Assembly: GCA_023458215.1 (NCBI GenBank) | Contig: JAEXAJ010000026.1 | Location: 1 to 36,323, forward strand | Origin: Bacteroidota bacterium | GTDB taxonomy: Bacteria; Bacteroidota; Bacteroidia; Bacteroidales; Bacteroidaceae | Length of the DNA stretch: 36,323 bases | Direction of reading: 5' to 3' | Shown here: positions 24,734 to 30,987 of the stretch, piece by piece | Layout: each line of letters begins with the position of its first letter | Numbering within the stretch: the first letter of the stretch is position 1 | The notes under the pieces: generated by a model | What the model saw: the letters and a program-made list of their open reading frames with translations, nothing else | Databases searched by the model: none | What the model was told of the DNA's origin: nothing | Program-made: the position numbers and the translations under genes

Positions 24734-25201
24734 TTAGACTAATTTAAAGCGCATTCTCCATCGTCTCGCTTCGTCATTCCAGTCGTGGCTGATGATCTTA
24801 AAAGTTCCGATTTCCGACGTGTTTGCAACATGCGTGCCGATGCAGAGGCATTGGTCATAATCTCCTACTTTTACTACGCGTACTGTTTCAGAGGCATCTT
24901 CCGGCAATCGCTCTAAATCGAAACGACCTTTCGCTTCCTCTTGTGAAATGAATTCTGTGGTGACCGGAAGATGTTGAGCGATCACTTCATTTACCGCTTC
25001 TTCCAGCTTTCTCACGTTTTCTTCTGAAGGACAGCCTTCCAAACAATAATCTAATTTACTCTTCTTCCGTTCTATATGTGCTGATACAGAGCGTCCGCAA
25101 TTAAATAACCTAATCATTGTCTGATTGACAATATGCTCGCAAGTATGCATAGGTGCGATTGACACATCCTGAAATTTGGGGGCTGCTTGGTTTATTTCCA
25201 T
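24734..25201 (-). CDS. AlaX-like aminoacyl-tRNA trans-editing protein
   Basis: This 155-aa stand-alone editing domain is of the alanyl/threonyl-tRNA synthetase second additional domain type. It would hydrolyse mischarged aminoacyl-tRNA. The zinc site is visible: H19-T-C-E-H23 (HxxxH) and C120-I-G-T-H124 (CxxxH), with VANTSEIGTFKI after it as in AlaRS (THVxNTxEIG). I start at ATG 25201. An in-frame ATG at 25228 lies inside the 26-bp repeat arm (25218-25243), and the nine residues it would add look like translated repeat. Which misacylated tRNA it edits is not readable. Confidence 0.88.
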   Translation of the reverse strand: MEINQAAPKFQDVSIAPMHTCEHIVNQTMIRLFNCGRSVSAHIERKKSKLDYCLEGCPSEENVRKLEEAVNEVIAQHLPVTTEFISQEEAKGRFDLERLPEDASETVRVVKVGDYDQCLCIGTHVANTSEIGTFKIISHDWNDEARRWRMRFKLV

Positions 25202-25217
25202 AATAGACAAGTTTTTA

Positions 25218-25243
25218 TTTTTAGACATAAGAACAAAAGAACA
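25218..25243 (+). repeat. Inner-facing repeat arm, left end of the GxxExxY unit
   Basis: This 26-bp arm consists of TTTTTAGACA, then the 8-mers TAAGAACA and AAAGAACA. The identical 26-mer forms both arms of the palindrome at 30833-30919. It lies 16 bp upstream of the AlaX start codon. Confidence 0.9.
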
Positions 25244-25262
25244 TATTTCTTCTTATGGGCAA

Positions 25263-25640
25263 TTATTGATGTTTATATTCTCTGAATTTTCTTTTTATTT
25301 CAATGCGTTCACCACCAAAGTTTATTAATAAGCCGTGGTCTGTATTGGTAGCGGTTAAGTAATTTACTAATTGGGTTTCGTGTATGGGGAGAAGATGCTG
25401 TACAGCTTTAAGCTCAATGATTATTTCTCCTTCTACGATTATGTCCGCTCTAAATTCTCCCACAATTTCATTTTTGTAATATACATTTATAAGTATTTCT
25501 GTATCTACATGAATACCTTTTTCTTTTAATTCTATCACCAATGCTTTTTGATAAACTGTTTCAAGAAAACCTGCGGCAAGATGTATTCTCACATTGTAAG
25601 CACACTGAATAATAGTTTTTATCAAACTTTCTATTTCCAT
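25263..25640 (-). CDS. GxxExxY family protein (PD-(D/E)xK nuclease-like)
   Basis: This 125-aa protein has the diagnostic motif G24-F-L-E27-T-V-Y30 and a nuclease-like core: Asp66 in EFRADIIV, then E76-L-K78 in IIIELKAV, the (D/E)-x-K arrangement of PD-(D/E)xK folds. It continues with HETQLVNYLTATNTDHGLLINFG, the usual family ending. Length is normal for the family. No biochemical role is established that I know of. The gene is tightly bracketed by inverted repeat arms (25218-25243 and 25645-25676), with only 19 and 4 bp between gene and arms, which suggests a compact mobile-like unit. An in-frame stop lies just upstream of the ATG, fixing the start. Confidence 0.88.
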   Translation of the reverse strand: MEIESLIKTIIQCAYNVRIHLAAGFLETVYQKALVIELKEKGIHVDTEILINVYYKNEIVGEFRADIIVEGEIIIELKAVQHLLPIHETQLVNYLTATNTDHGLLINFGGERIEIKRKFREYKHQ

Positions 25641-25644
25641 CTTT

Positions 25645-25676
25645 TTCTTTTGTTCTTATGTTCTTTTGTCTAAAAA
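25645..25676 (-). repeat. Inner-facing repeat arm, right end of the GxxExxY unit
   Basis: Read on the minus strand this is TTTTTAGACA followed by AAAGAACA, TAAGAACA and AAAGAA. It is the left arm with one extra 8-bp AAAGAACA unit, in inverted orientation. It ends 4 bp before the GxxExxY start codon. Confidence 0.85.
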
Positions 25677-25757
25677 ACAAGATAATGTGTCTCTTTCGTG
25701 TGCATGGAGGATATTCCTGCTTATTGTGCTCGTTGAGTTGAATTTCTTGTTCCATAA

Positions 25758-26573
25758 TTATTTCGTACGATTAATATATTTATCGAATCGTTCCATGTGA
25801 AGACCAGTACATTTTACTTTCACTATGTGTTGATTGTCTGTTAAAAAGCAGGTAGGAGTGGCTTGTGTCCCATATTTGATTTTCATGGGACTTGCATCTT
25901 GTTTAAAGTCAGAAATGAAAATATATTCAGAAGGATATTCTTGTTTTACTTCTCGTAGATTTTCTAACGAACTGCAAGGCCAATATACTATTATTAGAAA
26001 ATTCTCATTTGATGTTTGATTGTACAATAGTTCCAGTTCTTCGCGTCCACTTTTTCCCATACACCCTAATCCACCATAAAGTATGAGTAGTTGCTTTCCT
26101 TTAGTAATATTCCAATCAAATTCTTTTCCATCTATTTGAAAACATGGGAATGCGTATATTGGATCACCCTCTTGAATTTGATCGGTTTGTAAGTGTTCTC
26201 TGATATTTTTGCCGTCAAATGACTCTTGCATCTCAGGGTTAAGCGAGTTTAGTATGTTTTCTAAAGAATCTTTCGGGATATCGAGACGGATCATATATAA
26301 ACGTTGCAGTCCACTGGGAACCGATGCGTATTTTATCGCTAATTCTATATTCTTTTTAGCGGCCTTTCTGTAGATGTCTTCATAAAGATGTTGAATACTA
26401 TCTCTTTTTTCGGGCATTGTCTCCCAATATTTACTTAATGCCTCTTGTTGCTTTTCATAATTTGTCCAAAGAATACTGTCTTCTTTCAGATAGTTAGCTT
26501 CAGTTATAATCTCTTGCGAACAGAGTTTTGTTATATTCAATAGGCATATAATAACGATGTATAATTTGTTCAT
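25758..26573 (-). CDS. Exported thioredoxin-fold (TlpA/AhpC-like) protein lacking CxxC
   Basis: This 271-aa protein has a signal sequence (MNKLYIVIICLLNITKLCS) and a C-terminal thioredoxin-like domain starting near residue 140 (DPIYAFPCFQIDGKEFDW). LLILYGGLGCMGKSGREELELLY sits where TlpA proteins have a WCxxC active site, but only one cysteine remains (GCMGKS). The cis-proline position is kept in TQATPTCFLTDN. The N-terminal helical region, about residues 20-140, resembles the DUF4369/DUF5106-like fronts seen in Bacteroides TlpA homologues, but I cannot assign it surely. The lost CxxC argues against classical disulfide chemistry. Confidence 0.72.
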   Translation of the reverse strand: MNKLYIVIICLLNITKLCSQEIITEANYLKEDSILWTNYEKQQEALSKYWETMPEKRDSIQHLYEDIYRKAAKKNIELAIKYASVPSGLQRLYMIRLDIPKDSLENILNSLNPEMQESFDGKNIREHLQTDQIQEGDPIYAFPCFQIDGKEFDWNITKGKQLLILYGGLGCMGKSGREELELLYNQTSNENFLIIVYWPCSSLENLREVKQEYPSEYIFISDFKQDASPMKIKYGTQATPTCFLTDNQHIVKVKCTGLHMERFDKYINRTK

Positions 26574-26642: not shown

Positions 26643-27944
26643 CTATTCCATTGTAGCTAATACCTTTTCTTTCAAGATACTATATACATGTATGTCCGTA
26701 AATTCTCCGGAAGTAAGTAATTCTCCCGCTTGCTCTGTTCCTTCATGGTGGAAACCGAGACGGATAGGAATGGCATTGCTTGCTGCATTGCCGGTGGCAC
26801 AACGAACTTGTATACGTTTTATATCTTTTTCATTTACCAACCATTGACATAACCTGCGAACACAAGCTGTCATGATACCCCGGTGTTGATACTCGGGAAG
26901 CAGCCAATAACCAATTTCCGTGCGGTGATTAGCAAAATCAGAGAAATGTAATCCGATTAATCCACAGACTTCATTTCGGTCATTCCATATTCCGAATATA
27001 GGTTCATACTGTTCTTCAGGAACAGATAGTACACTTTTCAAGAAAGATTCTTCATCGGCTATCGAATGCATTTTGTCTACAAAAGGTAACCACGTTCTCA
27101 GATAGTCACGATGAGAGTCGATGGCATGAAAGATTGCGGCGGCGTCCTTCATAGTAACCTCACGTAATAGGATATCAGGAAAAATAGGGAATGAGATCAG
27201 AGTCGATTTTTTATTTACGGTCTTTGTAGGCTGACAAAGTTCCAATCTTTCTTTTATTTTTCCCCATGCGTGCGTATCGAACAGACAACTATCGCGCATG
27301 GTGTGATACATTTCCTTAAAACGAGACATCGGAATGGTGAAACTAAGTATATTGTCTTCGAAGTACGGACGTACGGAAGGATCGAAAAATCCTAAGAAGG
27401 TTCGTTTGCCTTGCAGTCTGTTTTCAAGGATGGCTTGTGTAACCACGGAACAGCAACCTGAACCGAATGGGGTGGATACGGCATCATACGCGTTGTTATC
27501 GAAGTATGCCCAAGTAGCCAGTCCGGAAAGCATGTCGGGGGTAGCCAGGAAAAGGATACCTTCTGCCCGGTCAAAAGACGATAGTTGATCTATACGGGCA
27601 AAATGCAAATAAGCTTTGTCCGTTCTGGGAACCTGTATCTCTTGTATAAAATCAAGTACCATCTCAGGGGTCTTCTTATATTTTTCTTTTAGTGAGACAA
27701 AGCCGGGTACACGTTCGGGCATATCTGTAAAGCCGGTATAGAATTTGCCGCCTCCACAAGTAATAGTTTCATTACTGAGGCTGACGACTTTTCCGTCTCT
27801 GACCAGCCGCATACATTTGAAGAGACAACCGTTTACTTTTTCAGTAGGTGCTTCTGCTTCATTTGAATACCAGAAAGCGATAGGAAGTTCCGCTTGCATA
27901 CCGAAAGCTTCCTGATAGTTGGATATGAATGTGTGTATGTTCAT
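26643..27944 (-). CDS. DUF169 - GNAT acetyltransferase fusion protein
   Basis: This 433-aa protein joins two domains. Residues 1 to about 235 look like DUF169 (LPIAFWYSN, NGCLFKCMRLVRDGKVVSLS, CGGGKFYTGF, STPFGSGCCSVVTQAI, RPYFEDNILSFTIPMSRF), a cysteine-rich family of unknown function common in anaerobes. Residues about 255-425 are a RimJ/RimL-type GNAT domain: LLREVTMKDAAAIFHAID, GLIGLHFSDFANHRTEIGYWLLPEYQHRGIMTACVRRL with the acetyl-CoA loop in QHRGIM, and NAASNAIPIRLGF. The linker is about 20 residues. The reading frame is continuous, so the fusion is intact in this sequence. Substrate unknown. Confidence 0.8.
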   Translation of the reverse strand: MNIHTFISNYQEAFGMQAELPIAFWYSNEAEAPTEKVNGCLFKCMRLVRDGKVVSLSNETITCGGGKFYTGFTDMPERVPGFVSLKEKYKKTPEMVLDFIQEIQVPRTDKAYLHFARIDQLSSFDRAEGILFLATPDMLSGLATWAYFDNNAYDAVSTPFGSGCCSVVTQAILENRLQGKRTFLGFFDPSVRPYFEDNILSFTIPMSRFKEMYHTMRDSCLFDTHAWGKIKERLELCQPTKTVNKKSTLISFPIFPDILLREVTMKDAAAIFHAIDSHRDYLRTWLPFVDKMHSIADEESFLKSVLSVPEEQYEPIFGIWNDRNEVCGLIGLHFSDFANHRTEIGYWLLPEYQHRGIMTACVRRLCQWLVNEKDIKRIQVRCATGNAASNAIPIRLGFHHEGTEQAGELLTSGEFTDIHVYSILKEKVLATME

Positions 27945-30832: not shown

Positions 30833-30919
30833 TTTTTAGACATAAGAACAAAAGAACAAATTAGAAAACATAAGCTATATCCTACTATGAATATGTTCTT
30901 TTGTTCTTATGTCTAAAAA
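30833..30919. repeat. Perfect 26-bp palindrome matching the GxxExxY unit arm
   Basis: 30833-30858 and 30894-30919 are exact reverse complements around a 35-nt loop. Each arm is identical to the 26-mer at 25218-25243. It looks like a gene-less derivative of the GxxExxY unit. Confidence 0.88.
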
Positions 30920-30987
30920 TAGTTCTTTTGTCATTTAGCTCAAAACCCTTCAGAAATGAACTATTATTTTGATGCGGTTGCCCTGGA

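Follow-up and report, generated by a model that had tools for sequence, protein, structure and literature searches.

Does a small gene of the GxxExxY family that lies between inverted arms of short repeated words reside there beside ordinary repeats, or does it form, together with these arms, a DNA element of its own? The question is raised by a stretch of 36,323 nucleotides from a Bacteroidota bacterium, hereafter the window, for which an earlier note, made from the sequence alone, had proposed a minimal element resembling REP-associated transposases. This widespread family (TIGR04256 / PF13366) has so far been named by motif alone; a testable function is now on offer.

The GxxExxY unit and the enclosed protein

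The GxxExxY gene of the window (25263..25640, minus strand) encodes 125 aa and is flanked by a left arm (25218..25243, plus strand), composed of TTTTTAGACA and two AAGAACA words reading inward, and by a right arm (25651..25676, minus strand), which is an inverted copy of the left one and has a further partial word beside it (25643-25650). The arms are 26 nt each, 92% complementary and spaced by 407 nt. The inverted match exists between the two arms; a single arm consists of tandem words with no palindrome. Searching the window for WAAGAACAWAAGAACA with at most one mismatch gave five matches against 0.04 expected, a number reached in 0 of 100 shuffles, so that the packaging of the gene between inverted AAGAACA-word arms described in the earlier note was borne out. 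Inside the unit, transposase was absent, and a Pfam profile search matched the enclosed gene to PF13366 only.

Two of the five WAAGAACAWAAGAACA matches belong to a gene-less (REPIN-like) copy at 30833-30919 that was overlooked in the earlier note. Its left arm (30833..30858, plus strand) and right arm (30894..30919, minus strand) are 35 nt apart, and as single-stranded DNA the copy folds with -25 kcal/mol (z -10). A degenerate single word, GACAAAAGAACT (30921-30932, minus strand), adjoins it. The hcp side of this copy was found in 12 loci, with no AAGAACA element in the adjoining DNA listed; the intergenic DNA does not align.

The window protein matched PF13366 with an E-value of 3.5e-37 (127.8 bits, cut-off 22) and TIGR04256 with an E-value of 1.8e-40 (137.9 bits, cut-off 35). 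D66, E76 and K78 were invariant in 44 aligned sequences, as were G24, E27, Y30, Q90 and Y94. The structure model (pLDDT 92.9) matched 4ic1, and its best structural matches were nuclease folds. The PD-(D/E)xK core that had been read from the sequence (D66, E76-x-K78) is upheld by this invariance and by the Cas4-like fold of the model, and the protein is predicted to be a minimal PD-(D/E)xK nuclease of RecB/Cas4 fold. Cas4 and RecB-type nucleases are much longer than its 125 residues. With regard to a CRISPR link, a passage of one paper states that a GxxExxY domain was assigned by its pipeline at a place for which a different tool had given cas4.

A PDB sequence search with the window protein gave no match up to an E-value of 1, and 0 families of the PADLOC-DB anti-phage defence library were matched at an E-value of 0.001. 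Carriage by phages was rejected, with no match in the phage collection at an E-value of 1e-5, and so was carriage by plasmids, with eight records only at 33-46% identity; a Bacteroides finegoldii plasmid record is a radA-GxxExxY-FAD stretch that looks chromosomal. The open full-text literature, from which subscription papers and preprints are mostly absent so that earlier notice is possible, yielded nothing about what GxxExxY proteins do or about the arms; the sole paper with any one of six arm words concerns eye development.

Arm words at related genes and gene-less copies

Relatives of the window protein were found at 47 loci when species genomes were scanned, and the 46 genomes concerned, chosen in this way by likeness to the window protein and not by arms, were searched with TIGR04256. 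Close relatives in Bacteroides, Parabacteroides and Coprobacter carry AAGAACA-type arms; among the flanks listed, distant relatives in other phyla carry arms made of other words. For quantification, the 200-nt upstream flank was compared with the reverse complement of the downstream flank and scored against 3,029 same-locus controls, two of 77 genes being dropped for short flanks. The inverted match exceeded the 99th percentile of controls at 59 of the 75 GxxExxY genes, in several phyla, and the 99.9th percentile at 46, leaving 16 of 75 without a significant inverted match in flanks of this length; in direct orientation, the 99th percentile was exceeded at 16 of 75. A detector of inverted word doublets reported 128 clusters in 560 kb, a set in which some loci contain the same gene twice, as compared with 5 and 8 in the reversed and complemented controls. 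Where the arms of a cluster were 230-2,200 bp apart (85 clusters), a GxxExxY ORF was enclosed in 70 and absent in 15. Arms at homologues in unrelated loci, which the earlier note had proposed to look for, are thus present in other genera and other phyla.

The two arms of a gene also fit each other. In statistics that, here as elsewhere in the analysis, count related genes as separate, 62 of 71 genes scored higher with their own arm pair than with the average mismatched pair of that word class, and 44 of the 71 higher than with any mismatched pair; most genes of the AAGAACA class gained little from having their own arms paired (20 vs 19.5 in the window).

Arm words (AAGAACA, CAGATT, CGGATT, CAGAGG and others) repeat every 8-10 bp. 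Word classes were chosen by eye after the flanks had been seen, and 73 of 108 genes were labelled in ten classes, 35 being without a clear class. On a tree of 103 proteins (five of the 108 under 95 residues were left out), 72 of them labelled and the unlabelled rows treated as one group, the word changed 37 times as compared with a shuffled mean of 65.5, and 0 of 200 shuffles were as low. All 14 AAGAACA-labelled proteins, with one unlabelled, formed one starred branch; CGGATT, CAGATT and CAGAGG also clustered (0 of 500 shuffles as low), and the CTGATT, AGGATT and CAAAG classes, with four rows each, showed no clustering on the tree.

The nearest protein in another genome carried the same word in 47 of 72 cases against 10.2 expected, and in 27 of 72 when the comparison was limited to proteins below 60% identity. 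For 31 genes, a labelled sister is present in the same genome; 14 of these 31 have their word in common with the nearest outside protein, whereas sisters agree in 4% on average; the genes of a single genome (G036), for instance, bear the labels AGGATT, CTGATT, CAGAGG and, twice, CAGATT. By these sequence comparisons, the word follows protein lineage more than host genome, a coupling that holds for the larger word classes and is what specific recognition of the word by the protein would give.

Arm pairs of the same words occur without a gene. Eleven of 60 Bacteroides genomes contain exact matches to the AAGAACA doublet GACAWAAGAACAWAAGAACA, 42 in all, and the reversed pattern gave 0. Thirty-nine of the 42 lie away from any GxxExxY match, one of these (in G087) adjoining a broken remnant. 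Inspection of 20 doublet stretches revealed many clean inverted pairs, the broken remnant at alaX in L146, and several doublets in or beside CACAGAG-type arms. These gene-less copies are dispersed inverted pairs, their extragenic placement having been judged by eye on the inspected loci. An intact gene of the AAGAACA type is present in four of the 60 genomes (G001, G002, G004 and G010), all of which have dispersed copies; among the remaining 56, dispersed doublets without such a gene were found in seven.

The CAGGATT doublet behaved similarly, with 6 to 396 copies in eight of 38 genomes and at most one in the other 30, the reversed control giving one in total. An AGGATT-flanked GxxExxY gene was seen in seven of the eight CAGGATT-rich genomes, its type assigned by eye in G015 and G016, to which the script gave no label; doublet richness accordingly applies to 7 of 7 genomes with the gene type vs 1 of 31 others. 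The exception, G044, is CAGGATT-rich, but its GxxExxY genes carry other words. The possibility raised in the earlier note that the repeats are distributed independently of GxxExxY genes therefore fails, the doublets being tied, with exceptions, to the gene type.

In one CAGGATT-rich genome, AGGATT-type elements stand in tandem with a spacing of about 100 bp, like REPIN clusters (L309, G015:C176:4309-5131). In G001 and G058, CACAGAG-type arms contain or adjoin AAGAACA elements (L154-L156, L149), and in L155 and L156 the AAGAACA element looks fully nested in the loop of a CACAGAG-type hairpin, which suggests that one element type uses another as a landing site.

Filled and empty sites in related species

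At the window locus, the unit adjoins alaX (24734..25202, minus strand), which encodes an alanyl-tRNA editing protein and has its likely start at ATG 25202, as inferred from homologues; the 164-aa alaX ORF as called begins inside the left arm. In species without the unit, the alaX 5' end is intact (MEQQIQLN...PPMHT or similar). In the window, codons 1-25 of the former alaX are found as a severed 5' end outside the right arm (25681..25755, minus strand), no longer as one open frame, and the alaX body is joined to a replacement 5' end (MEINQAAPKFQDVSIAPMHT, 25143..25202, minus strand), which separates it from the unit. In the empty-site species L167, the same type of alaX body (88% identical) begins with another N-terminus, and relative to this species the extra DNA of the window extends from about 25154 to 25697. 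The target duplication ACAAG considered in the earlier note was rejected, because the right flank is old alaX sequence; filled and empty sufC-sufD junctions show none either. An exported-protein gene (25758-26573) has the severed alaX end on one side and the gene at 26643-27944 on the other; L167, collinear in other respects, lacks it, which makes it an additional insertion or loss at this place.

In the window and in six of 12 other alaX-linked loci (L001, L002, L004, L014, L045 and L146, the last two with broken genes), the severed 5' end of an alaX lies beyond the unit, and across the unit from it stands a complete alaX that begins with a different N-terminus. No severed end was detected by tblastn in L003, L005, L009, L010, L011 and L031. 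Between the window and L001 or L004, the unit with short flanks is 89-90% identical and the DNA beyond 70-77%, a step such as transfer of the unit plus flank would give. The alignments of the window with L002, L003, L005 and L031 are continuous over the unit at 76-82%, with no identity step.

Among 30 sufC-sufD loci, three contained a unit (447-519 bp), one a gene-less element (107 bp) and two an apparent solo arm (31 bp); in the other 24, the gap was 0-16 bp in 20 and 42-87 bp without GxxExxY in four. A unit at this site was found in three more genomes and, by coordinates, in two more (G050 and G081), one of them broken. The gap after the stop codon is 3 bp in G099 and G086, 444 bp in G085 and 509 bp in G037. 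The units of G085 and G037 differ in proteins and words, and SufC of G085, G037 and G099 is 100% identical in the sequence compared; two different units thus occupy the same 3-bp gap in species with identical SufC. The empty and filled sufC-sufD junctions compared had no target-site duplication. An insertion sequence or MITE with a DDE transposase was rejected on this ground and on the absence of a transposase inside the unit. In L198, the 87-bp sufC-sufD gap contains mirror-image A/T-rich words (AATTATGA-like), perhaps another type of gene-less element.

Of 30 radA loci, eight were filled, 17 had gaps of 6-136 bp with no gene, in four the next gene was not matched, and one, with a 724-bp gap, was left out; L233 and L253 have an apparent left arm only. 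Three filled loci lie outside this set, among them L088, which is without visible arms. At the same radA junction (L229, L232), the units of G085 and G099 differ in word (CAGATT, CAGAGG) and in protein branch, an apparent replacement of the unit in place. Retention of the radA copy in many species looks like long residence or domestication. The empty sites in relatives that the earlier note had called for are therefore on record, with filled and empty orthologous sites at alaX, sufC-sufD and radA.

These sites bear on how the unit arrives. In a homing-type gene drive, the nuclease would cut an uninterrupted target, e.g. alaX at the HxxEH motif or an operon junction, and repair from a unit-bearing copy would import the unit with its flanks. 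The severed alaX ends at the window and half of the other alaX-linked loci, the identity step against L001 and L004, and the repeated striking of the same sites (sufC-sufD, radA) speak for it, but six alaX-linked loci lack a severed end by tblastn, gene-less copies are many and scattered, and no co-converted coding flank accompanies the sufC-sufD units in the junctions listed. A homing component is possible, since at alaX the unit seems to have brought coding DNA with it from its flanks; as the full account, we consider homing unlikely, and equally doubtful is its explanation of the parts, with arms as binding or protection sites and gene-less copies as deletion products.

Still less probable is a resident role for GxxExxY, as a housekeeping nuclease or a regulator that binds repeats, next to arms that would be common intergenic repeats, either REP-like terminators or sites of protein binding; gene and arms would then be associated through binding and not through mobility. 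The retained radA copy and the hairpin-forming arm pairs in gene-poor gaps would suit such a role, but orthologous junctions gain and lose units and gene-less copies, one and the same gap is occupied by different units where SufC is identical, and the word type tracks protein lineage across genomes. That the arms act in RNA, the unit being tolerated as an insert and its stem being processed once transcribed, like the S23-encoding 23S rRNA intervening sequences, is very improbable: neighbouring genes mostly run in the same sense as GxxExxY (upstream 78 of 89, downstream 72 of 89) and the intervening sequence with an S23 gene is of similar size with a 28-bp terminal stem in the part of PMC4990558 at hand, but arm mismatches in 85 alignments had no G-U wobble bias (99 vs 110, P 0.49) and the modelled enzyme fold is that of a DNA nuclease.

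The proposed element and known systems

Inverted word arms occur together with dispersed gene-free copies, and the unit therefore looks like a minimal, little-noticed kind of mobile DNA. Observed are the architecture across phyla, the word-lineage coupling, the dispersal of gene-less pairs, deletion derivatives, and presence or absence at orthologous sites. The anatomy supports the earlier suggestion of a RAYT-like minimal selfish element and extends to its gene-less copies; we consider it probable that the GxxExxY unit is a minimal selfish DNA element and that gene-less arm pairs of the same word were dispersed by the unit or its relatives. Counting against this reading are the absence of a target-site duplication, the long-kept radA copy and the armless L088, the genes with no significant inverted match or no word label, the three small word classes that fail to cluster, the slight own-arm gain in the AAGAACA class, and the genomes that have dispersed doublets but no intact gene of the matching type.

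In the proposed mechanism, the nuclease, probably a dimer or larger, would recognise the word array of its own arms, either in duplex form or folded into a hairpin, extruded or single-stranded, and would cut at or near the T-rich outer end of the arm. The element may then reach intergenic gaps by copying or by movement, for the most part inside operons and in sense direction, and gene-less copies would be mobilised in trans. Joining by host repair is our guess; we know of no PD-(D/E)xK enzyme of the RecB/Cas4 fold that joins DNA. The proposal offers a source for periodic short repeats scattered in the genomes examined (AATCCGTGTAATCCGTG-like, CACAGAGG-like and AGGATT-like), and if the enzyme reads the words, the natural protein/word pairs of the various phyla constitute a ready data set on recognition by a 125-residue nuclease.

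The chances are about even for a wider view, in which a large class of mobile DNA, spread across phyla, has GxxExxY proteins as its enzymes, a lone RecB/Cas4-fold nuclease reading a periodic word code and moving itself and gene-less hairpins, with enzyme and word diversified together; S23 four-helix-bundle genes may share the arm architecture, joining rRNA intervening sequences to the class. Genes of this four-helix-bundle family (S23/TIGR02436), up to 17 per genome (L139:61-500, L255-L284), often lie between inverted arrays built from different words (TTGGTTAC, GAAGGCT, GTCATGGGT). Their flanks passed the GxxExxY flank threshold of 12 in 19 of 31 cases; measured against 210 controls of their own, only five of 31 exceeded the 99th percentile. 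As described in the available part of PMC4990558, 23S rRNA intervening sequences with S23 resemble the unit in having about 430-460 bp, one small gene and terminal inverted repeats of 26-28 bp. They differ in their insertion into rRNA and excision from RNA by RNase III, in S23 being of another, four-helix-bundle family, and in that word arrays do not figure in that part of the account.

Free-standing homing endonucleases are similar in the invasion of a conserved gene and, at part of the alaX-linked loci, in the apparent arrival of flanking coding sequence with the unit, whereas the GxxExxY unit has inverted word arms and dispersed gene-less relatives. Rpn / YhgA-like nucleases (PF04754) share the PD-(D/E)xK core, a proposed role in aiding DNA acquisition, and, as reported for one paralogue, independent insertions in the same place, but belong to another Pfam family, and the portion of PMC5350276 consulted mentions neither arms nor gene-less copies; RpnA is described there as having little sequence specificity in vitro.

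The closest comparison is with REPIN/RAYT (TnpA-REP, 'REPtron') systems, which, in the extracts of PMC3116915 and PMC8266576 at hand, likewise consist of short repeats in inverted pairs, dispersed over extragenic DNA and accompanied by a single small enzyme gene, the enzyme evolving together with the type of repeat. The RAYT enzyme is an HUH tyrosine (Y1) transposase and GxxExxY a predicted PD-(D/E)xK nuclease; the REP repeat is itself a palindrome, whereas the GxxExxY arm is an array of 8-10-bp words with none; and the GxxExxY gene, unlike that of REPIN/RAYT, sits inside the doublet. The unit is not a REPIN/RAYT member, because its enzyme is not HUH and its arms are not palindromes. By analogy, it is best read as an autonomous/non-autonomous selfish pair that would work like RAYT/REPIN with no shared part and, if this is true, would extend RAYT-like mobility to an enzyme class that is not HUH.
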